A stretch of DNA of 34,941 nt from an uncultured Pseudomonadales bacterium (GTDB lineage Bacteria > Pseudomonadota > Gammaproteobacteria > Pseudomonadales > UBA7434). Position numbers and translations under genes: made by a program. The DNA lies in assembly GCA_905478995.1 (NCBI GenBank), contig CAJQKT010000009.1, positions 1 to 34,941 of the forward strand. Direction: 5' to 3'. Below the pieces are notes generated by a model that was given only the letters and a program-made list of their open reading frames with translations, had not been told where the DNA came from and made no database searches. Below are positions 891 through 34,031 of this stretch, piece after piece; positions within the stretch are counted from its first letter, which is position 1, and every line of letters starts with the position of its first letter.

Positions 891-1775
891 ATGATCAGCG
901 CTGATATGCCTTACACAAAAAAAACCTGCCTCGTTGATGGAAAAAAGATTGCTTACATTGAAGAAGGTGAAGGCGACCCTATTGTGTTATTGCATGGCAA
1001 TCCTACTTCATCGTATCTGTGGCGCAATGTCATCCCTGAGCTCAGTGGCAAGGGACGCATCATTGCTCCCGACCTGATTGGCCATGGCGACTCGGAAAAA
1101 CTGCCAGCTAATGAAGGCCCTAAGCGCTACTCGTTTTTAAGCACTTATCGTTATTTGGCGGGGCTGCTGCAGGAACTCGGCGTTGAAAAAAATGTGAACC
1201 TTGTGATTCACGATTGGGGCAGCGCGCTGGGCTTTTACTGGGCCGAGCAGCATCCAGAGTCAGTTCGCAGCATTGCCTATATGGAAGGTATTGTCTGCCC
1301 GCTAAGCTGGGATAACTGGCCAGAAAGCGCACGCGGCATTTTTAAGGGCTTTCGATCAGAAAAAGGGGAGGAGCTCATATTACAACGCAATTTGTTTATT
1401 GAAGCCGTACTGCCCAGTTCAGTGATGCGCAGCTTAAGCGACACAGAAATGCAGCATTATCGCGCCCCTTTCTCGTCGGCAGATGATCGCCAACCGACGC
1501 TCAATTGGCCACGCCAAATCCCCCTTGATGGCGAACCTGCCAATATGGTTGATTTGGTTTCAAGCTATGGACAATGGCTAAGCAATAATGAAAAATTGCC
1601 CAAGCTATTTATTAATGCCGAGCCAGGCTCTATTTTGGTTGGGGCCGCCCGCGAATTTTGCCGAGGCTGGCCAAATCAAAGCGAAATTACAGTAAAAGGC
1701 AGCCATTTTATTCAAGAAGATTCACCCGCAGAAATTGGCCAGGCCATTGCGACTTGGCTCGATACGATCAACTAA
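891..1775 (+). CDS. Haloalkane dehalogenase, HLD-II (LinB/DhaA-like)
   Basis: Alpha/beta-hydrolase that should cleave carbon-halogen bonds hydrolytically, giving an alcohol, halide and a proton. Length (294 aa) and catalytic spacing match LinB closely: nucleophile Asp108 in HDWGSALGF, Glu132 as catalytic acid in YMEG, and His272 in KGSHFIQED. The halide-binding pair is present as Asn37 (LHGNPTSSYLWRN) and Trp109. The Asp in place of Ser at the nucleophile elbow, followed by Trp, separates it from esterases and epoxide hydrolases. A clear AAAGGAA ribosome site precedes ATG 891. It is followed 49 bp later by a DUF1330 gene and then an SDR that could oxidise the alcohol product (inference). Halide specificity cannot be read from sequence. 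Confidence 0.93.
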   Translation: MISADMPYTKKTCLVDGKKIAYIEEGEGDPIVLLHGNPTSSYLWRNVIPELSGKGRIIAPDLIGHGDSEKLPANEGPKRYSFLSTYRYLAGLLQELGVEKNVNLVIHDWGSALGFYWAEQHPESVRSIAYMEGIVCPLSWDNWPESARGIFKGFRSEKGEELILQRNLFIEAVLPSSVMRSLSDTEMQHYRAPFSSADDRQPTLNWPRQIPLDGEPANMVDLVSSYGQWLSNNEKLPKLFINAEPGSILVGAAREFCRGWPNQSEITVKGSHFIQEDSPAEIGQAIATWLDTIN

Positions 1776-2978: not shown

Positions 2979-3611
2979 TTAATCTAAGTCGATTTTGACC
3001 GGCCCCTGAAATGAATGCCCGCTAAAGAAAAAACTGACCCTAGCAGGGTTGGGTATTTCTAGATACAGATCGTGCTTGAGCGTCACCTTGTTAATAGACC
3101 AACCATCGGGCAAAACGCGCTCGTTTTGTCGAGTCATACCGGGCAAACCCACAACATCGCTAACTTGCGGCACATACGCCATGCCATCACCGCAATCTAA
3201 AATTTCAATTGTCCGCCCTGCAGCAAACATCACACTATGATGCTTATCTACCGCAAGCACTAAAACTTCGCTGAAGCCTGGCTCCATTTCACCCGGAATA
3301 GCCACCTGAGCAAAGGTTCTTCCATCAACAACCATTGTGGCAAGCTGGCCGTTTTCTGTCGCACCGGGTGCGCGACGAAAAAAAGCTGCATCATGCTCCG
3401 CTTTACCCAAGCCTGATTTAATAAACCCTGTAGGAACTTGTAGTGCTTCGTACTCTTCGGGCGTTACTGCTTGCTGGCATAACCATATTTTTAGCGTAGC
3501 AAGCTCCATAATTTCACCATAGACGGAACGCCCGTCTAATGTCCAGTTCGACGTCCACTGTCTATTGCCTAGCACAGCCAGCGCTCGCTCTTGAATCGAT
3601 GGTAAACTCAT
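2979..3611 (-). CDS. Protein of unknown function coupled to a haloalkane dehalogenase
   Basis: A 210-residue soluble protein that I do not recognise. It has no signal peptide, membrane segment, CxxC or nucleotide-binding motif. It contains a GFIKSGLGKAEHDAAFFRR stretch and a beta-rich second half with many alternating hydrophobic residues (VLVLAVDKHHSVMFAAG and KVTLKHDLYLEIPNPARV). Its ATG overlaps the TGA of the upstream dehalogenase gene as ATGA (3608-3611), which implies translational coupling. It is the last gene of the five-gene reverse operon. A role tied to the dehalogenase, such as product handling or stabilisation, is only inferred from that coupling. Confidence 0.85.
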   Translation of the reverse strand: MSLPSIQERALAVLGNRQWTSNWTLDGRSVYGEIMELATLKIWLCQQAVTPEEYEALQVPTGFIKSGLGKAEHDAAFFRRAPGATENGQLATMVVDGRTFAQVAIPGEMEPGFSEVLVLAVDKHHSVMFAAGRTIEILDCGDGMAYVPQVSDVVGLPGMTRQNERVLPDGWSINKVTLKHDLYLEIPNPARVSFFFSGHSFQGPVKIDLD

Positions 3612-4519
3612 ATGCTAACCTCCAAAAACGGTATGATTGCCTCAACCAACTCTTCAGGTTTATCTTCCTGAATGAAGTGCCCCGCTCCGGCAATAATTTT
3701 GTGCTTTTGGCCTTTAGCCCCCGGCACAAATTTCTTAAAAATCTTTTCGCCACGATAAGAAATTGGGTCTTTATCGCCAAAAAGAGTTAAAAATGGCTTA
3801 TCAAACGTTTTTAATTTCTCCCAAATAATCTTGTTGAGCGGCACACCTGGATTGCCAGGCAATATTGCGATCAATTGCGGAAATTGGCGTATGCCTGCCT
3901 GGTACTTTCTTTGTGGGAATGGTGCTTTTTTATAAGCAAAATATTCCGCGTCACTAAATTGTGGACGCAACACCGAATTTTTAAATCCAAGATCGAAAGG
4001 GAATGAAGGTAGTATTTTCATAATTCTTAACCACCAACGCAGCCACTTGTTGCCGCCCTCACCCGCCGGTATTCCTGTATTAGACGCGATAACGCGATCA
4101 AAGCGCTCTGGAAACTCCGACACAAGATACAAACCGATTGTGCCACCCCAGTCTTGACAAAAAAGCGTAATATTGCTGAGCTCGTTTGCCAGCAACCACT
4201 TTGACATCCACTCATAGTGCCTGGCTAGCGTGTAATATTTTCTCTTGGCGGGCTTATCACTGCGACCGCAACCTACTAAGTCCACCGCAATAACCCTTCG
4301 ACCGGTTGCCAATAGCGCCGGGATCATATGTCGGTATAAATAGGCCCAAGAAGGGTTGCCGTGCATGAGCAAGATAGGCTCGGCATCTCTTGGCCCTTCA
4401 TCAATACTGTGAATACGTATTTCACTCCCATCGCTATCGGTAATAGTGGTGTAGTGCGGTTCAAAGTTATAGCCGGGCAAATTGTCAAAACAGCTATCGG
4501 GTGTGCGCAATATTTTCAT
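3608..4519 (-). CDS. Haloalkane dehalogenase, HLD-I-like (DhlA class)
   Basis: Second alpha/beta-hydrolase of haloalkane dehalogenase type, 303 aa. It begins with the N-terminal signature RTPDSCFDNLPGYNFEPHY seen in this subfamily. The nucleophile is Asp123 in CQDWGGTIGL, with Trp124 as one halide ligand; His281 (GAGHFIQED) is the base. The acid is probably Asp251 in LFGDKDPI after strand 7, as in DhlA, instead of the Glu used by the LinB class. The second halide-binding Trp may be among Trp159, Trp162 and Trp163, unproven. HGNPSWAY forms the oxyanion region. ATG 4519 is preceded only by a weak TTGGAA. The gene lies 66 bp after an SDR gene and overlaps the next gene by four bases. Confidence 0.9.
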   Translation of the reverse strand: MKILRTPDSCFDNLPGYNFEPHYTTITDSDGSEIRIHSIDEGPRDAEPILLMHGNPSWAYLYRHMIPALLATGRRVIAVDLVGCGRSDKPAKRKYYTLARHYEWMSKWLLANELSNITLFCQDWGGTIGLYLVSEFPERFDRVIASNTGIPAGEGGNKWLRWWLRIMKILPSFPFDLGFKNSVLRPQFSDAEYFAYKKAPFPQRKYQAGIRQFPQLIAILPGNPGVPLNKIIWEKLKTFDKPFLTLFGDKDPISYRGEKIFKKFVPGAKGQKHKIIAGAGHFIQEDKPEELVEAIIPFLEVSI

Positions 4520-25573: not shown

Positions 25574-26785
25574 ATGAATATAGATTTTTCGGCAGATGAG
25601 CTGGCCTTTCAGCAGGAAGTCAGCACGTTTCTAGCGGAGGAATTTCCTGAGGAAATCCGTAACAAAACAGCCAACAGCATTGAACTGGGCAAAGATGACT
25701 ACGTAAACTGGCAGAAAATTCTAGCCAAAAAGGGCTGGGCTGCGACCAACTGGCCCGTGGAACACGGCGGCACAGGTTGGACGCCGACCCAAAAATATAT
25801 CTTTGGCAACGAGTGCGCTAAAGCGGGCGCCCCTGAAGTGATGGCCTTTGGATTGAAAATGGTCGCACCGGTTATTTACATCTACGGCAATGAAGAGCAA
25901 AAACAACGCTTCCTACCCGATATTTTGGCCAGCAACGTATGGTGGTGTCAGGGTTACTCTGAACCCAATGCAGGGTCTGACTTAGCTTCATTAAAAACCA
26001 CGGCAGTTCGCGAAGGCGATGAATACGTGGTTAATGGTACAAAAACTTGGACCACATTAGGCCAACACGCCGATTGGATTTTTTGCTTGGTTCGCACCGG
26101 CGCCGCCGATGTGAAAAATCAAAATGCTATTTCATTTTTATTGATTGATATGAAAACGCCGGGCATTAACGTCTCACCCATTTATCTGCTAGACGGCTCG
26201 CCCGAGGTCAACGAAGTGCATTTTGATAATGTGCGAGTGCCTGCAGAAAACTTAATCGGTGAAGAGGGTAAAGGCTGGACTTACGCTAAAGTATTGCTCA
26301 CCCACGAGCGCACGAATATAGCCGGCGTTACTGACAGCAAAAATCGCCTGAAAGATCTCAAAGAAAAAGCAGCCAAAACCAGCGACGGTATGCCCGGTAG
26401 CCATTCTATGCTGAGTGATAACCACGCATGGCAACAAAAAGTAGCTGAGTTAGAAATAGAACTGCTGGCGCTGGAGTACACCGAACTTAAAACGTTAGCT
26501 GCGGTGAGCACTGGCAAAGCGCCAGGACCAGAATCATCTATTTTGAAAATCAAAGGCACTGAAATACAGCAGACGATCGATATTCTTAATGTAGAGATGG
26601 CTGGTTATTACGGCCTGCCTTTTGTACGCGATCAGTTTATGGATGGCTTTGATGGAGTCCCAATTGGTCCAGACCAAGCCGCTGCAAGTGCACCCATTTA
26701 TTTCAACAACCGCAAAGCAACTATTTATGGCGGTAGTAACGAAATTCAAACCAATATTATCTGCAAAGCCGTACTCGGCCTGTAA
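25574..26785 (+). CDS. Acyl-CoA dehydrogenase (FadE-like), probable catalytic subunit
   Basis: FAD-dependent acyl-CoA dehydrogenase of 403 aa, catalysing alpha-beta desaturation of an acyl-CoA. The middle domain shows WCQGYSEPNAGSDLASL and NGTKTWTT. The C-terminal domain ends IYGGSNEIQTNIICKAVLG. The residue matching the MCAD base (the Glu of YEG) is Gly here. Instead Glu245 in LLTHERTNIAG sits where isovaleryl-CoA dehydrogenase and the FadE28/FadE29 type carry the base. It is followed 13 bp later by a second, degenerate dehydrogenase gene, the layout of heteromeric ACADs of steroid and bile-acid breakdown. AGAGGA precedes ATG 25574. Confidence 0.93.
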   Translation: MNIDFSADELAFQQEVSTFLAEEFPEEIRNKTANSIELGKDDYVNWQKILAKKGWAATNWPVEHGGTGWTPTQKYIFGNECAKAGAPEVMAFGLKMVAPVIYIYGNEEQKQRFLPDILASNVWWCQGYSEPNAGSDLASLKTTAVREGDEYVVNGTKTWTTLGQHADWIFCLVRTGAADVKNQNAISFLLIDMKTPGINVSPIYLLDGSPEVNEVHFDNVRVPAENLIGEEGKGWTYAKVLLTHERTNIAGVTDSKNRLKDLKEKAAKTSDGMPGSHSMLSDNHAWQQKVAELEIELLALEYTELKTLAAVSTGKAPGPESSILKIKGTEIQQTIDILNVEMAGYYGLPFVRDQFMDGFDGVPIGPDQAAASAPIYFNNRKATIYGGSNEIQTNIICKAVLGL

Positions 26786-26798
26786 GCGGGGAAAGACA

Positions 26799-27926
26799 AT
26801 GGATTTTTCATACAGTGAAGAGCAGCAAATGCTGCAAGATAGCGTTAGCAAATTTATTAGCACAGAGTACGACTGGGATAGCCGCCAAGCTATTGCAAAA
26901 AGTGAGACGGGATTCAGCGCAGATCATTGGCAGTTATTTGCCGAGCTGGGTTGGCTGACCGTACCGTTTAAAGAAGATGATGGCGGCTTTGGTGGCAGCG
27001 CAGTTGACTTGATCGTAACAATGGAAGAGTTTGGTAAAGGCCTGCTAGTTGAACCGTTTTTAGCCAACACCATACTGGCTGGCACGTTAATCGCCGAAGC
27101 TGGCAGTTCCGAACAAAAAACCGAACTTCTCACGCCCCTCATGGAAGGCAATGTGCAACTAGCCTTTGCCTACGCAGAGCCACAAAGCCGTTATGAGCTG
27201 GCCAACATACAGTGTAACGCTGTTATTAATGGCGATGAAATTGTGCTTAACGGGCATAAAGCGGTTGTATTAAATGGCGCCGCAGCTGAAAAAATCTTAG
27301 TTTCGGTGCGCACATCAGGTGACGCCTGTGATCGTGAAGGCGTCAGCTTACTTTGGGTTGATGCTAATTCTGCAGGCATTCGACGTGAGTCTTACGCGAG
27401 CGTTGATGGTCAACGTGCTGCCGACATATGGTTTGATAACGTAACACTCCCCACAAGTAACCTGTTAGGCGATGTTGGCGAAGCAATAGACGTTATTGAA
27501 ATGACTATCGACAGAGCGGCTTTAGCCATTTGCGCAGAGGCCGTTGGCGCCATGCAAATGTCTTTGTTCAAAACCGTCGAATACAGCAAAATTCGCAAAC
27601 AATTCAATACAACGCTTTCAACGTTCCAGGCTCTGCAACACCGCATGGCGAATATGTTCATAGAGGTTGAGCAGGCTAAGTCGATATTGCTTATGGCTGC
27701 CATGGAAATGGATCGCTTAGATGGCAAAGCGCCTAAGGCACTCTCCGCCGCAAAAAGCCGCATTGGCAAAGCAGCTCGCCTAGTCGGAGAAGAGTCTATT
27801 CAAATTCACGGTGGCATTGGCGTCACCGATGAGTTAGACGTAGGCCATTACTTCAAACGCTTAACTGCCATTCAATTTTCATTTGGCAGCACCGATTACC
27901 ACACCGCTCGTTTTGCCGCTAGCTAA
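26799..27926 (+). CDS. Acyl-CoA dehydrogenase-like protein, probable non-catalytic partner
   Basis: A 375-residue acyl-CoA dehydrogenase fold beginning MDFSYSEEQQMLQDSV at ATG 26799, with GGGGAAAG upstream. An open frame reaches further 5' but only overlaps the first dehydrogenase gene. The usual TEPxxGSD stretch is altered to YAEPQSRYELAN. The alternative base position reads Asp238 (TIDRAALAI) instead of Glu, and the MCAD position is Gly (FGSTDYH). HGGIGVTDELDVGHYFKR is kept and can contribute to FAD binding at the subunit interface. These changes suggest a partner of the 25574-26785 product in an alpha2beta2 enzyme; this is inference, since Asp could retain activity. Confidence 0.9.
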   Translation: MDFSYSEEQQMLQDSVSKFISTEYDWDSRQAIAKSETGFSADHWQLFAELGWLTVPFKEDDGGFGGSAVDLIVTMEEFGKGLLVEPFLANTILAGTLIAEAGSSEQKTELLTPLMEGNVQLAFAYAEPQSRYELANIQCNAVINGDEIVLNGHKAVVLNGAAAEKILVSVRTSGDACDREGVSLLWVDANSAGIRRESYASVDGQRAADIWFDNVTLPTSNLLGDVGEAIDVIEMTIDRAALAICAEAVGAMQMSLFKTVEYSKIRKQFNTTLSTFQALQHRMANMFIEVEQAKSILLMAAMEMDRLDGKAPKALSAAKSRIGKAARLVGEESIQIHGGIGVTDELDVGHYFKRLTAIQFSFGSTDYHTARFAAS

Positions 27927-29121: not shown

Positions 29122-29487
29122 TTATATAAAAAAAGGCAAACCATAGGCGGCAACAAAGCCAAGCATCCAGATTCCCACTGACACCCAAATAAAGCGTCGA
29201 TTCCAAACGTCTGCGCGCTCGCACGCTGCTGCTAATTCAGTATCGACTGGGCAACTTCTACCCGAACGGTGAACCACCCACGCGGCCAGTGCAATCAGCA
29301 GACCTGAGGCTAAAAACATCCACCCTTTAAATTGGCTTAAGGTAATCAGCCACGGCGCAGACGACGCCATGGTTGCGACGGTCGCCCCCAGTCCCAACGT
29401 GACTAACGTTATAGGCATCGCGCAACACAATAGCGTGCCAGAGGTGGTAAACAGGAGCAACCAACTCCATGAGCGCGGTTTATTCAT
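29122..29487 (-). CDS. MerT-like small membrane metal transporter
   Basis: A 121-residue inner-membrane protein with about three helices. TSGTLLCCAMPITLVTLGLG places a Cys pair in the first helix, as in MerT. A later SCPVDTELAAACERADVWNRRF gives the second Cys pair, followed by a last helix ending YGLPFFI, also MerT-like. The start is ATG 29487 with GAGGTC upstream; the open frame begins at 29517. With the MerP-like protein encoded 0.8-1.1 kb upstream it suggests uptake or relay of a soft metal such as mercury or copper. No mercuric reductase or MerR gene is present here. Confidence 0.75.
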   Translation of the reverse strand: MNKPRSWSWLLLFTTSGTLLCCAMPITLVTLGLGATVATMASSAPWLITLSQFKGWMFLASGLLIALAAWVVHRSGRSCPVDTELAAACERADVWNRRFIWVSVGIWMLGFVAAYGLPFFI

Positions 29488-29601
29488 GCAGACCTCACTA
29501 TCATTTAAATTTCGCAATCACTTGAGTCAGCGCTCATCAATCAGCTCACTCGATGCTTGAGAAAAACAAACATCCTCGCCGCAGTAGACGCTTTTAACCC
29601 A

Positions 29602-30258
29602 TTAATAAACAATACCAATGCCGGCACTTATAAAATCACCATCCCATTCGTTATCGTTATCAAGCAAAGGCATTTTATATTCGAATCGCACTACAACATT
29701 GCGTTTAAAATACATTAGTACGGGGCCGGTTAATATCCGCTGCCCAGATGCTGAGTCTACGGCGGTAACGTCCCACAAGGTAAACAATGAAGATCCGTTT
29801 CCGTCTGCATAAACAGGACCTATGTTGACATCCAACCCCGTTTTGTCACCCAGCGTATAAACATCATAAAGCTGAAAGAGAGAAGCAGTCTCCGCACTGT
29901 AACTAAGGCTTAAGCCCGCGTCCCAATCGCTGCCACCGCCAGTGGGCATCGCCACTGAAGGGGTAAGCCCCCAACTGGAAGTAAAACCCCCGGCGTTTTT
30001 ATAGTGCTTAATAGGCACGGCAACAATCGCATCACCGAACTCACCGTCGGCATAGGGAAGTTTAAACGTCATACGCACCGAAGGCTTAAATGTATAAACA
30101 CCCTCAAGCCACTGCGTTGTGGTTGAGTTAGCGTGCTCAGTACGTGTTTGAATACCGTACCCATTGTTCCAGCGTGGCGCCATATCCATAACCGGCTGAT
30201 GCGCAAGCGCCGTGTTACAAGCGCCCACCAGTAAAAGCAGATATAACACGCCTTTCAT
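29602..30258 (-). CDS. Exported beta-barrel-like protein
   Basis: A 218-residue protein with a clear signal peptide (MKGVLYLLLLVGACNTALA, cleavage before HQP). The mature part alternates hydrophobic and polar residues with aromatic girdles, such as GGFTSSWGLTPSVAMPTGGG and VVRFEYKMPLLDNDNEWDG. It ends with a C-terminal strand GDFISAGIGIVY, terminal Tyr, typical of outer-membrane barrels. A size of about 199 mature residues suits an 8- to 10-strand barrel. The start overlaps the upstream HMA gene by ATGA (30255-30258) and has GGAGGTGA. It may carry metal or small molecules across the outer membrane; function unproven. Confidence 0.75.
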   Translation of the reverse strand: MKGVLYLLLLVGACNTALAHQPVMDMAPRWNNGYGIQTRTEHANSTTTQWLEGVYTFKPSVRMTFKLPYADGEFGDAIVAVPIKHYKNAGGFTSSWGLTPSVAMPTGGGSDWDAGLSLSYSAETASLFQLYDVYTLGDKTGLDVNIGPVYADGNGSSLFTLWDVTAVDSASGQRILTGPVLMYFKRNVVVRFEYKMPLLDNDNEWDGDFISAGIGIVY

Positions 30259-30590
30259 TGGCTCACCTCCAGCTTTTTACCAGCCGAATCAATTGCCCAA
30301 ATCTCAATGGGTTGATAGCCACCGGCTTCAATCGCATCAAATAAAACAGTTTTGTCGAGCGCCGCATCCTCACGAACTGCCAGATAAACCAATTGATTGT
30401 TTATATCAACTTTAATGCCTTTGTCGTAATTTGAGGGATCAATAAAAGAGAGTTTTCGCAATTTTTTTGCCACGCCCAATGAGCAGAGCTCACAGACGAT
30501 GCCATGCACACTTACGACATAATTTTGTGCCGATAAAGAACCAGAAAACATAGCGCATAAAAGCGCAAGAAAAGTAATTTTTCGCAACAT
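30255..30590 (-). CDS. Periplasmic heavy-metal-associated (HMA/MerP-like) protein
   Basis: A 111-residue protein with a signal peptide (LRKITFLALLCAMFSGSLSA, cleavage near AQN). A ferredoxin-like HMA domain follows. The metal site is GIVCELCSLGVAKKLRKL, where CxxC fits the GMTCxxC consensus loosely. The rest (VDINNQLVYLAVREDAALD and AIEAGGYQP) keeps the family fold. It likely binds a soft metal in the periplasm and hands it to the MerT-like protein two genes downstream. AAAGGTAGC precedes ATG 30590; a hairpin separates it from the Cys-rich gene upstream. Confidence 0.8.
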   Translation of the reverse strand: MLRKITFLALLCAMFSGSLSAQNYVVSVHGIVCELCSLGVAKKLRKLSFIDPSNYDKGIKVDINNQLVYLAVREDAALDKTVLFDAIEAGGYQPIEIWAIDSAGKKLEVSQ

Positions 30591-30622
30591 GATGCTACCT
30601 TTTGAATAAAAAAATAAGACAC

Positions 30623-30636
30623 AGCCCGCTTGGGCT
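30623..30636 (-). terminator. Hairpin with downstream T-run between the Cys-rich and HMA genes
   Basis: AGCCC (30623-30627) and GGGCT (30632-30636) pair around GCTT. Reading the reverse strand, GTGTCTTA then TTTTTTT follows, making a weak intrinsic terminator or attenuator inside the reverse cluster. The forward side has CATTTTT as well. Only five pairs, so strength is modest. Confidence 0.5.
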
Positions 30637-30643
30637 CATTTTT

Positions 30644-31036
30644 CTAAACTAGGTGCAAGATGGGAGGCCTAAAGGGTGGGGTAATATTACTGGCCGTCAA
30701 CATTAATGGCATGATAGAAAAGTCAACATCGGTAACTTTTTCAACACGTTTGACGGTTTGGGTGCAGGCTTGCATCATCGTACATGCAGAACAGCATGTA
30801 TCGGGCGTGCCACCGTGTTGATCACTCGACTGGTCAACGCCGCCTGTTTCAAAAAAACTGCTAGGGCCTTCATCGCTCGAGTCATGGCAAGGCGCTTGCT
30901 CCTCGCTCAAATCACTGTTCACAGCTGCGCAGCAAGCCCCAAAAACGAAACTGGCGTTTATGGTAAACATCAACAACAGAACTTTTAGCAGCAGGCTCCC
31001 TGAGCCAATCAAGTCTCTCATCAGTATAGTGAACAT
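30644..31036 (-). CDS. Cys/His-rich exported or membrane-anchored protein
   Basis: A 130-residue protein with a hydrophobic N-terminal segment (about 10-33, GSLLLKVLLLMFTINASFVFGA), then ACCAAVNSD, an acidic stretch with HDSSDEG, and TCCSACTMMQACTQ. The last part ends TPPFRPPILHL; a terminal P-x-RPP pattern is common in small copper-associated exported proteins of the DUF2946 type, which is the nearest match I can suggest. GGGA is close to ATG 31036; ATG 31021 (MRDLIG) is an alternative start. It heads the metal cluster and probably binds a soft metal. Confidence 0.7.
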   Translation of the reverse strand: MFTILMRDLIGSGSLLLKVLLLMFTINASFVFGACCAAVNSDLSEEQAPCHDSSDEGPSSFFETGGVDQSSDQHGGTPDTCCSACTMMQACTQTVKRVEKVTDVDFSIMPLMLTASNITPPFRPPILHLV

Positions 31037-31174: not shown

Positions 31175-32512
31175 ATGGCAATCATTGCCCATCAAATAGC
31201 GCCTACTGGTGGAGTATACTTTGGCAACTATGCGAAAATTGACCACCGTTATAAACCCTCAGGCCGCACTGTGATCGGGCCCATCGTGCAACACTCGGCT
31301 TTTTTCGTCTGCGCTGCGCTGCCTCGATATAGCGTGGCCTGGGTTGCCCTGTCTATTGGGGCGGCCATGACTACACTACCTAACCACAGTCTTGCATCAA
31401 GCAACATTGAGTTTACCCTCAACGCTCAGTGCCCACCGAGCTACAGATTGGCTGCCGACAATCGATGCTCGCTCCGCCATCGCTATCAATTATATGAATC
31501 GCTCCAAGACCGCGGTGTAGGCGGGCTCAAAACGGCGCTGCCTGAGGCACGCGATGGTTTCAGCCCACAACAAATTGATTTAGGGCGACTACTGTTTTTT
31601 GATCCGATTTTATCAGCAAACCACAGTCTGTCTTGCGCTACCTGCCACAATCCCGCCCAAGGATTCAGCGATGGTATGGGGCGTGGCCGCGGCATCAATG
31701 GCAGCATACAACAGCGCTCTGCGCCCACTTTATGGAACAGCGGCTTTCTGTCTTTATTTTTTTGGGACGCGAGGGCCACAAGCTTAGAACAACAAGCAAA
31801 AAGCCCGCTCTTTAGCGTAAATGAAATGGGCAACACGCCTGCCAAATTGTTAGCCAGCATGCAGCAAAGCCCTGCCTACAAGAAACTTTTCGCGCAGGCT
31901 TTTCCTGAACATCCCCAAGCCGTGAGCATCGAGCATATTCTTACCGCATTGAGTGCTTTTCAAAGCTCTTTGATATCGCTCAATAGCCGCTACGACCAAT
32001 ATGCACATGGGTACCATCAAGCGCTCAACGAGCAAGAATTAGAGGGGCTCAATATTTTTCGCTCGTTTGTTGCGCGCTGCTCTCAATGCCACACCCCACC
32101 GCTCTTCACCAACCAACAAATTGCGGTCATTGGCACTCCCGAGCCCAGTGATTTGCCGCGCGATATAGGGGCAGAAAAAACCTTTAATGCCAGCGTTTTG
32201 CGCGGCGGCTTCAAAGTCCCTACACTACGCAACATTGCTAACACTGCTCCCTATATGCACTCGGGTAGATTCAACACCCTGCGCGAGGCCACTGAGTTTT
32301 ACAATAAAGGGCGCGGACATGCGGTCGATAACGAAGAACAACTGCTCCTGCACTGGCACATTTCAGAGCCCAACTTAACCGCTCAAGAAATTGATCGCTT
32401 AGTAGATTTTATGCATACGTTGACCGATGAAAGCCTTATACCCAACACTCCAGCACACGTGCCTTCAGGGCTGCCGCTGATGCACCAGGAGAACCACTAT
32501 GAACAACAGTAA
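31175..32512 (+). CDS. Di-heme cytochrome c peroxidase/MauG-family protein
   Basis: A 445-residue periplasmic di-heme protein as drawn. Two c-type heme sites are present: SCATCHNPAQGFSDG (Cys154, Cys157, His158) and RCSQCHTPPLF (Cys302, Cys305, His306). Family signatures DLGRLLFFDPILSANHSLSC, VPTLRNIANTAPYMHSGRF and EFYNKGRGH are clear. The export signal is around SAFFVCAALPRYSVAWVALSIGAA, deep in the frame, so the true start may be GTG 31271 rather than ATG 31175, which has no ribosome site. Family members reduce peroxide or oxidise partner proteins. The gene overlaps the next by 14 bp, and that next product is a likely partner. Confidence 0.9.
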   Translation: MAIIAHQIAPTGGVYFGNYAKIDHRYKPSGRTVIGPIVQHSAFFVCAALPRYSVAWVALSIGAAMTTLPNHSLASSNIEFTLNAQCPPSYRLAADNRCSLRHRYQLYESLQDRGVGGLKTALPEARDGFSPQQIDLGRLLFFDPILSANHSLSCATCHNPAQGFSDGMGRGRGINGSIQQRSAPTLWNSGFLSLFFWDARATSLEQQAKSPLFSVNEMGNTPAKLLASMQQSPAYKKLFAQAFPEHPQAVSIEHILTALSAFQSSLISLNSRYDQYAHGYHQALNEQELEGLNIFRSFVARCSQCHTPPLFTNQQIAVIGTPEPSDLPRDIGAEKTFNASVLRGGFKVPTLRNIANTAPYMHSGRFNTLREATEFYNKGRGHAVDNEEQLLLHWHISEPNLTAQEIDRLVDFMHTLTDESLIPNTPAHVPSGLPLMHQENHYEQQ

Positions 32513-34031
32513 ACGTTCAGGCCTGACCATTGCGCTACTTGTGTTTTTTGCGCTATCTGTATTTGTAGCTGGCTGGTACGTTGGCCAGAATAAACATCAG
32601 CCACCCACCATCACATCGAGCCTGGGCGGTGCGAGTTACAGTGGCGGCTATCGTCCAAGCAATGAGGTCGTCCCGCATGGTAACAGCGCGGTAAAAACTC
32701 GCAGTAAAACCGGCAACGTACATGTTGTTGAGCCCGGCGGTTCCATTCAAAAAATGGTAGAGCGCGCGCAGCCTGGCGACACCATTCAAGTAATGCCTGG
32801 CACCTATTCCGAAACGGTCTACATCGATAAAGACGACATTCATTTAGTGGGCGTAATTTTGGCTGGTGAGCGCGCGACGCTCAATGGCCTAGGCAAACTC
32901 AACGATGCTATTCTTTACTCAGGCAATAACATCATTATTGAAAATTTTAAAATCACTGCCTACAAAGGCAACGGCATTATGAGTCAGGCCGGCAACAATT
33001 TTGAAATTCGCAACAACATTATTATTGACACCGGCATCTACGGCATTTTTCCTCAGCTGGGCAAGAATGGGCTAATTGAGCATAACGTGGTATCGGGCAT
33101 CGCCGATGCGGCAATTTATGTGGGCATGAGTGACAACATACACGTGGCCTACAACGAAGTGTTTGATAGCGTAGCGGGCATTGAAATAGAAAATAGCCGC
33201 CATGCGATTGTTGAGCACAATCACACGCATCACAACACTGGTGGGATTTTGGCATTTATTACGCCAGGTTTGCCGGTCAAAGATACCTACGACGTCATCA
33301 TTCGCAACAACTTTATTCTCGACAACAACACCGCAAATTTTGGCGCACCGGGATCCACGGTAGCGGGAATTCCTGCGGGCACCGGCATTTTGGTCATGGC
33401 CGCTGACGACGTCATTATTGAAGGCAACATTATTAGCAACAATAAAACTGCGGGCATTTTAATTACCGACCATGCCAATGCGGAAAATCTCACCCTCGAC
33501 CTTGATTCGGATCCGAATGCTGATAGAGCGATGATTTTAGACAATGTAATGATCAACAATGGCTACGATACCATTGATGTTATAAGGGCCTTCGCGCTGA
33601 CTGAGTTGCACACCGGCAATATTGATATTTTTCAAATCGGGCCCAGCCAAGACAGCTGCATTATTAATCGACATCGCTATCATGCTGTAGGCATCGGTGA
33701 CTTTTCTGAATGCACATTCAACAATACTGACAATATCGACAATTACTTAATCGCCGGAGGTGCCGAGCCCCGCGTAATCGCTCCATCCGAGCGTGGCGAA
33801 ATTGCCTATCTGGGCATCTGTACAGGCTGCCATAGCTATACAGGCCGACTCATTGGCCCACCGGTGCAGCTCATTCAAGCTATGTATAAAGACAACCCCG
33901 AAGGGCTAGCTGCCTACATTAATGCGCCCATTAAAAGACAGCCCAACTACCCCCCTATGCCGGCACAAAATTATCTCGACCCAGAAACACAATTAGCCGT
34001 GGCCCATTATATTTTGCAGGTTGGCCCCTAG
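32499..34031 (+). CDS. Membrane-anchored parallel beta-helix protein fused to a C-terminal cytochrome c domain
   Basis: A 510-residue envelope protein. A single N-terminal helix (about 8-28, GLTIALLVFFALSVFVAGW) anchors it with the bulk in the periplasm. Residues about 80-360 form a right-handed parallel beta-helix of NosD/pectate-lyase type, seen as repeated N-x-I-I and G-I units (IIIENFKITAY, FEIRNNIIIDTGIYGI, IRNNFILDN, VIIEGNIISNN). A cytochrome c domain closes the protein: CTGCH (Cys441, Cys444, His445) and YPPMPAQ with Met487 as likely sixth ligand. AGGAGAA precedes ATG 32499, inside the end of the di-heme gene. The fusion suggests electron exchange with that protein and a substrate bound on the helix. 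Confidence 0.88.
   Translation: MNNSKRSGLTIALLVFFALSVFVAGWYVGQNKHQPPTITSSLGGASYSGGYRPSNEVVPHGNSAVKTRSKTGNVHVVEPGGSIQKMVERAQPGDTIQVMPGTYSETVYIDKDDIHLVGVILAGERATLNGLGKLNDAILYSGNNIIIENFKITAYKGNGIMSQAGNNFEIRNNIIIDTGIYGIFPQLGKNGLIEHNVVSGIADAAIYVGMSDNIHVAYNEVFDSVAGIEIENSRHAIVEHNHTHHNTGGILAFITPGLPVKDTYDVIIRNNFILDNNTANFGAPGSTVAGIPAGTGILVMAADDVIIEGNIISNNKTAGILITDHANAENLTLDLDSDPNADRAMILDNVMINNGYDTIDVIRAFALTELHTGNIDIFQIGPSQDSCIINRHRYHAVGIGDFSECTFNNTDNIDNYLIAGGAEPRVIAPSERGEIAYLGICTGCHSYTGRLIGPPVQLIQAMYKDNPEGLAAYINAPIKRQPNYPPMPAQNYLDPETQLAVAHYILQVGP

Follow-up and report, generated by a model that had tools for sequence, protein, structure and literature searches.

A MauG-type di-heme protein and a beta-helix/cytochrome c fusion protein as a possible periplasmic oxidation couple in gammaproteobacteria

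Introduction

MauG acts on tryptophans of methylamine dehydrogenase, and MauG relatives have been studied for long-range radical chemistry. To our knowledge, few of these relatives have known partners. A comparable case is MbnH (SACCP; TIGR04039) with MbnP/MopE (TIGR04052), which are presented in the available text of one source as a conserved pair extending beyond methanobactin producers (PMC3621798). Genes similar to mauG also adjoin methanethiol oxidase (MTO/SBP56), according to the accessible part of another report; the gene there stands in an operon with its presumed client, in the order mtoX-SCO1-mauG (PMC5739008). BthA, a Burkholderia protein with a conserved Tyr ligand, is described in the available portion of its source as a diheme peroxidase, and high-valent peroxide-driven chemistry is attributed there to both BthA and MauG (PMC6405878).

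Here we describe a MauG-type gene paired with a gene for a beta-helix/cytochrome c fusion protein, found in a stretch of 34,941 nucleotides from an uncultured Pseudomonadales bacterium (the window). A literature search of titles and abstract openings, mostly in the open literature, returned no description of such a pair. A MauG relative with a near-obligate partner in named strains makes the function of the pair open to test. The recurrent pairing of beta-helix and di-heme proteins also provides a handle on the SO2930 family.

Results and Discussion

Organization of the gene pair

The open reading frames of the two genes, 31175-32512 (+) and 32499-34031 (+), overlap by 14 bp, as the earlier note on this DNA had reported from the sequence alone. 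That note had also assigned the first frame to a di-heme MauG type starting at 31175; the type stands, while the start has to be moved. Compared with its closest relative, a gene 90% identical to the MauG-type gene of the window (L005), codons 1-53 of the longest frame show 11, 7 and 10 differences at the three codon positions, with 18 non-synonymous and 5 synonymous codons. Because this segment varies evenly over codon positions, unlike coding DNA, translation probably starts at GTG 31334, and the MauG/MbnH-type di-heme enzyme would be encoded at 31334..32512 (+). The fusion protein of 510 aa is encoded at 32499..34031 (+), with a Shine-Dalgarno-like AGGAG located 5' of its ATG.

Distribution of the pair

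The pair was followed through genomes of the order and class and through a collection of named genomes, from which 80 loci were kept out of 384 relatives found. The fusion is present in 42 of 293 order genomes, counted from rows reaching the cytochrome domain. A profile search of the order, with six candidates at most scored per genome, gave a MauG subfamily score of 577 bits or more for 41 genomes, each of which is among the 42 fusion genomes. The next-best score was 249.7 bits, and no other order genome exceeded 250 bits. The remaining fusion genome (G045) gave no MauG subfamily match, and its contig ends inside the fusion gene. Among the named loci, the MauG gene is located directly upstream of the fusion gene in 79 of 80, commonly with a start/stop overlap; the last one (L079) has 129 bases upstream only, at a contig edge. 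Among 369 genomes of the class, four, the window's own included, carry the MauG subfamily, and the fusion occurs in exactly these four. The association is far beyond chance, and the pairing is near-obligate, the two genes forming one conserved unit. A check for co-occurrence of the fusion with MauG proteins, which the earlier note had proposed, is therefore answered in favor of the pair.

Many marine gammaproteobacteria carry the pair, and the named strains include members of Colwellia, Thalassotalea, Paraglaciecola, Shewanella and Steroidobacter. The distribution is patchy, since within the window's own genus the pair was found in two members (G000 and G012) and is absent from ten other listed members. 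One genome (G411) encodes a second MauG-like protein (L153:4717-6027; 449 bits, 47% identical), and no beta-helix of this kind was found in its 11-kb surroundings, which indicates that an enzyme of this kind can work by itself or with a different partner. The other MauG-family protein of the window genome (L159:968-2359) lies beside an Asp-rich repeat protein that appears calcium-binding-like by eye.

The MauG-type di-heme protein

The first protein matches PF03150 (CCP_MauG; 176.1 bits against a cut-off of 25.6, E 9e-52) and possesses two CXXCH motifs, which places it in the CCP_MauG superfamily. Its best NCBIfam models are TIGR04039 (MbnH; 223.4 bits, cut-off 362.85), followed by TIGR03791 (MauG; 188 bits, cut-off 443.85), both falling far under cut-off. 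TIGR04039 was matched by all 26 aligned family members, with a best E of 9e-70 versus 3.8e-66 for the window protein, and a further member (L034) scored 225.8 bits on it.

Conservation was read from an alignment of 79 rows, composed of 78 named loci and the window. The first heme site CATCH (residues 154-158; 31634..31648, +) is kept in 78/78 gap-free rows, and the second, CSQCH (residues 302-306; 32078..32092, +), retains C302, C305 and H306 in 79/79. Tyr376 (32300..32302, +), the MauG-type axial Tyr replacing the peroxidase Met, is Tyr in every row; its aligned counterparts are Tyr in MbnH and Met in a cytochrome c peroxidase. His362 is invariant as well, W197 and Q207 are invariant in 78/78 gap-free rows, E217 in 77/77 readable rows, and P211 is found in 76/78. 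Judged by spacing and alignment, W197, Q207, P211, E217 and Y376 correspond to W93, Q103, P107, E113 and Y294 of MauG, the latter numbering being that of structure and reference titles. The family hence displays the axial Tyr, the Trp between the hemes and the distal Gln/Pro/Glu set of MauG. It differs from MauG at the position matching Trp199, which we take to be the exit residue and which is Ala in 78 of 79 rows and Gly in one.

The model of the protein, built without hemes, is weak (pLDDT 66.8). Its best structure match is MbnH (6e1c, Z 24.0); the top-scoring peroxidases reach 22-23 and MauG about 20. MbnH resembles the protein in its Tyr ligand and in having a gene dedicated to a partner, but the partner here is a beta-helix/cytochrome protein. 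BthA shares the Tyr ligand and the peroxide chemistry proposed here, but is only about 28% identical to the MauG-type protein by structural alignment, and the available part of its source mentions no beta-helix partner. An intact distal pocket combined with a Tyr ligand suggests high-valent chemistry driven by peroxide, similar to that of MauG and BthA.

The beta-helix/cytochrome c fusion protein

The second protein matches the parallel beta-helix model TIGR03805 (179.8 bits, cut-off 141.5) and also the Pfam NosD and Beta_helix families, whereas TIGR04247 (NosD) reaches 56.3 bits against a cut-off of 300. PF00034 (cytochrome c) covers residues 431-508 with 23.2 bits over a cut-off of 21.3, including CXXCH and the distal Met. 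A putative N-terminal membrane anchor or uncleaved signal at about residues 9-31 (32523..32591, +) is indicated by a predicted helix (6-31) and the hydrophobic sequence, from which the topology is predicted. The right-handed parallel beta-helix domain spans about residues 74-380 (32718..33638, +) according to the profile match and the model, and the C-terminal monoheme cytochrome c domain, delimited by PF00034 and conservation, comprises residues 430-510 (33786..34028, +). The alignment of the fusion has 79 rows, made up of the window and 77 named loci, of which one contributes two pieces. Its heme motif CTGCH (residues 441-445; 33819-33833, +), scored on Cys, Cys and His, is kept in 77/77 gap-free rows, and Met487 (33957-33959, +) in 76/76. 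The composition that the earlier note had proposed, an anchor, a NosD-like beta-helix and a C-terminal CTGCH/Met cytochrome, agrees with these profile matches and the helix prediction. Pfam and NCBIfam profile matches revealed no cofactor domain other than heme in the beta-helix protein. A ThuA-glucose/sorbosone dehydrogenase protein (L145:2627-5155) ends in a cytochrome domain that resembles the one in the fusion.

The fusion model (mean pLDDT 83.4) is closest in fold to mannuronan C5-epimerases, with Z 31 and an rmsd of 2.1-2.3 over 280 residues at 15% identity. Tailspikes, polysaccharide lyases, polygalacturonases and NosD come next at Z 25-29. An epimerase-like active site was rejected, given that other beta-helices are close in Z and that AlgE4 aligns weakly at the profile level, in an ambiguous repeat register. 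For this reason catalytic residues were not carried over from AlgE4.

Tyr103, Tyr155, Tyr181 and Tyr207 of the fusion are invariant in 78/78 gap-free rows, and Asp203, Glu229 and Glu231 are invariant where aligned among the 79 rows. The tyrosines, the MauG-type ligand set and the dedicated partner gene are what would be expected if the beta-helix protein were the substrate and the MauG-type enzyme converted its tyrosines into a protein-derived cofactor or cross-link, and MauG-partner pairs are a known theme in the available texts of PMC3621798 and PMC5739008. We nevertheless regard such maturation as rather unlikely. No Trp column is conserved in the 79-row alignment of the fusion, so maturation of Trp, by TTQ or kynurenine formation, is disfavored; in this the locus departs from both methylamine dehydrogenase and MbnP, as there is no conserved Trp to convert. 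The Ala or Gly at the Trp199 position also argues against it. Moreover, beta-helices with an SO2930-family partner keep Tyr181 and Tyr207 just as invariantly, and that family showed no resemblance to this MauG outside a heme motif in a profile comparison.

Neighboring genes

In 45 of the 80 named loci, a di-heme cytochrome c4-type gene with two PF00034 domains lies upstream at a distance of 1.5 kb or less, as it does in 14 of 17 loci when the 16 long ones and the window are considered. The window and most SAR92/Porticoccaceae loci lack it next to the pair; two c4-like di-heme genes occur at other places in the window genome. The frequent presence of this gene is consistent with peroxide respiration or detoxification, where a cytochrome c peroxidase would be supplied by cytochrome c4 together with the monoheme domain, and the beta-helix would be an anchor or spacer. 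The distal Gln and Glu of peroxidases are retained, and BthA, also with a conserved Tyr, counts as a diheme peroxidase in the accessible part of PMC6405878. We consider this explanation unlikely, since Tyr instead of Met departs from classical peroxidases, and an invariant Tyr/Asp/Glu face, retained at 25-33% identity and with different di-heme partners, is unexpected for a spacer.

TonB receptors and AraC-type regulators form clusters that are each represented in 29 named loci, 22 of which have both, with family identity checked on five TonB receptor and two AraC-type members. CoA-transferase and thioesterase genes often adjoin the pair in Porticoccaceae. A pathway was sought in these neighbors and abandoned: CoA-transferase, thioesterase, AMP-ligase, aldehyde dehydrogenase and TonB receptor genes vary between clades, and for this reason no substrate is named. 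Elsewhere in the window, adjacent acyl-CoA dehydrogenase genes at 25574-27926 (+) resemble the large and small subunits of pimeloyl-CoA dehydrogenase, under both cut-offs. Two genes, at 891-1775 (+) and 3608-4519 (-), match haloalkane dehalogenase models over cut-off (403 vs 241 and 379 vs 265 bits).

A divergent four-gene cluster at 29122-31036 (-) encodes a small membrane protein, an outer-membrane-like protein, a weakly MerP/CopZ-like protein and a Cys-rich protein. The small membrane protein is MerT-like by eye, without a family match, and the outer-membrane-like protein was likewise assigned by eye. The earlier note had taken this cluster to strengthen a metal or cofactor link. When the four proteins were searched in 145 loci, the only locus other than the window to have the cluster genes next to the pair was L050, with a fusion protein that shares 98% identity with that of the window; L005 is the same relative, with a flank too short to show the cluster. 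The metal link drawn from the cluster was rejected on this distribution. Maturation of copper or another metal, like that by NosD or MbnH/MbnP, could also draw on the weak MerP/CopZ-like protein, on MbnH as nearest structure to the MauG-type model, and on NosD, which shares the right-handed beta-helix, the Pfam match and a fold similarity of Z 27.0 (7o0y). However, NosD is one among many beta-helices of similar Z, it has no fused heme domain of the kind seen here, and family-wide conserved metal ligands are lacking: no His, Cys or Met is invariant on the face common to TIGR03805 beta-helices. The MbnP partner (TIGR04052) was found in none of 20 genomes carrying the cassette, in a search whose control matched 11 of 274 class genomes, 10 of them over cut-off. 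The methanethiol oxidase operon differs from the pair in its client, SBP56, and in containing a copper chaperone, as far as its available description goes. Metal maturation, as the earlier note had envisaged it, is very improbable.

Beta-helices paired with SO2930-type proteins

Fifteen other beta-helix loci were hand-picked from further matches in the order. All 15 contain an SO2930-type (TIGR03806) di-heme partner, in eight loci encoded after the beta-helix gene as an adjacent gene, and in seven fused with the beta-helix in one protein of 790-1019 aa. TIGR03805 was matched over cut-off by all 14 beta-helices scanned (those of every locus but L136), and TIGR03806 by five of five scanned adjacent partners and five of seven fused proteins, L142 and L143 being under it. 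A search of MauG loci (L034-L129, L155, L156) found no gene of the SO2930 type. The idea that the MauG and SO2930 families share an origin was tried and rejected, because hhalign returned a 17-column heme-motif match only, with a probability of 23%. SO_2931, an outer-membrane multiheme cytochrome in the available portion of the Shewanella literature, is of no direct use here.

Although the di-heme families differ, Y181, D203, Y207, E229 and E231 are invariant in 19 beta-helices across three architectures. In the predicted helix most of these residues share a single sheet, with D203 standing just before its strand. This sheet is more conserved than the other two (mean 0.784 vs 0.659 and 0.531; 0/10000 permutations), in a test with strands assigned from the model and non-independent positions. 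Seven scanned separate SO2930-paired beta-helices score 410-435 bits on TIGR03805 versus 179.8 for the window's fusion, which makes the fusion a distant branch, and a function common to both is uncertain. Since the residues persist with two di-heme partners between which no likeness was found outside the heme motif, the beta-helix is probably the functional center and the hemes its redox supply.

Gene pairing, domain composition, ligands and the conserved sheet are the observations to be explained. Our best reading, held with less than even confidence, is that of a periplasmic oxidation couple in which both proteins are dedicated to each other. Peroxide would react at the five-coordinate heme of the MauG-type enzyme, giving a high-valent di-heme state, and the enzyme would then draw electrons through, or at, the beta-helix of its partner, presumably in a direct complex. 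The Tyr/Asp/Glu sheet may bind a substrate, probably small or polymeric, hydroxylated or anionic, while the fused monoheme domain and the cytochrome c4-type protein would exchange electrons with the respiratory chain. The conserved sheet could instead be a structural element or a docking face. Of the undescribed periplasmic system for oxidation or peptide/metal maturation that the earlier note had suggested, the oxidation part conforms to this reading.

A broader and more doubtful proposal is that TIGR03805 beta-helices constitute a new class of heme-powered periplasmic enzymes with the Tyr/Asp/Glu sheet as active site. At least two di-heme oxidants unrelated to each other, those of the MauG and SO2930 types, would serve them. 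Three architectures would be used for this: a separate oxidant with a monoheme fusion, an adjacent one, and one fully fused to the beta-helix. A further set of beta-helices, for example in G190, G006 and G160, occurs in open frames of 500-610 aa that match mostly query residues ~90-345.
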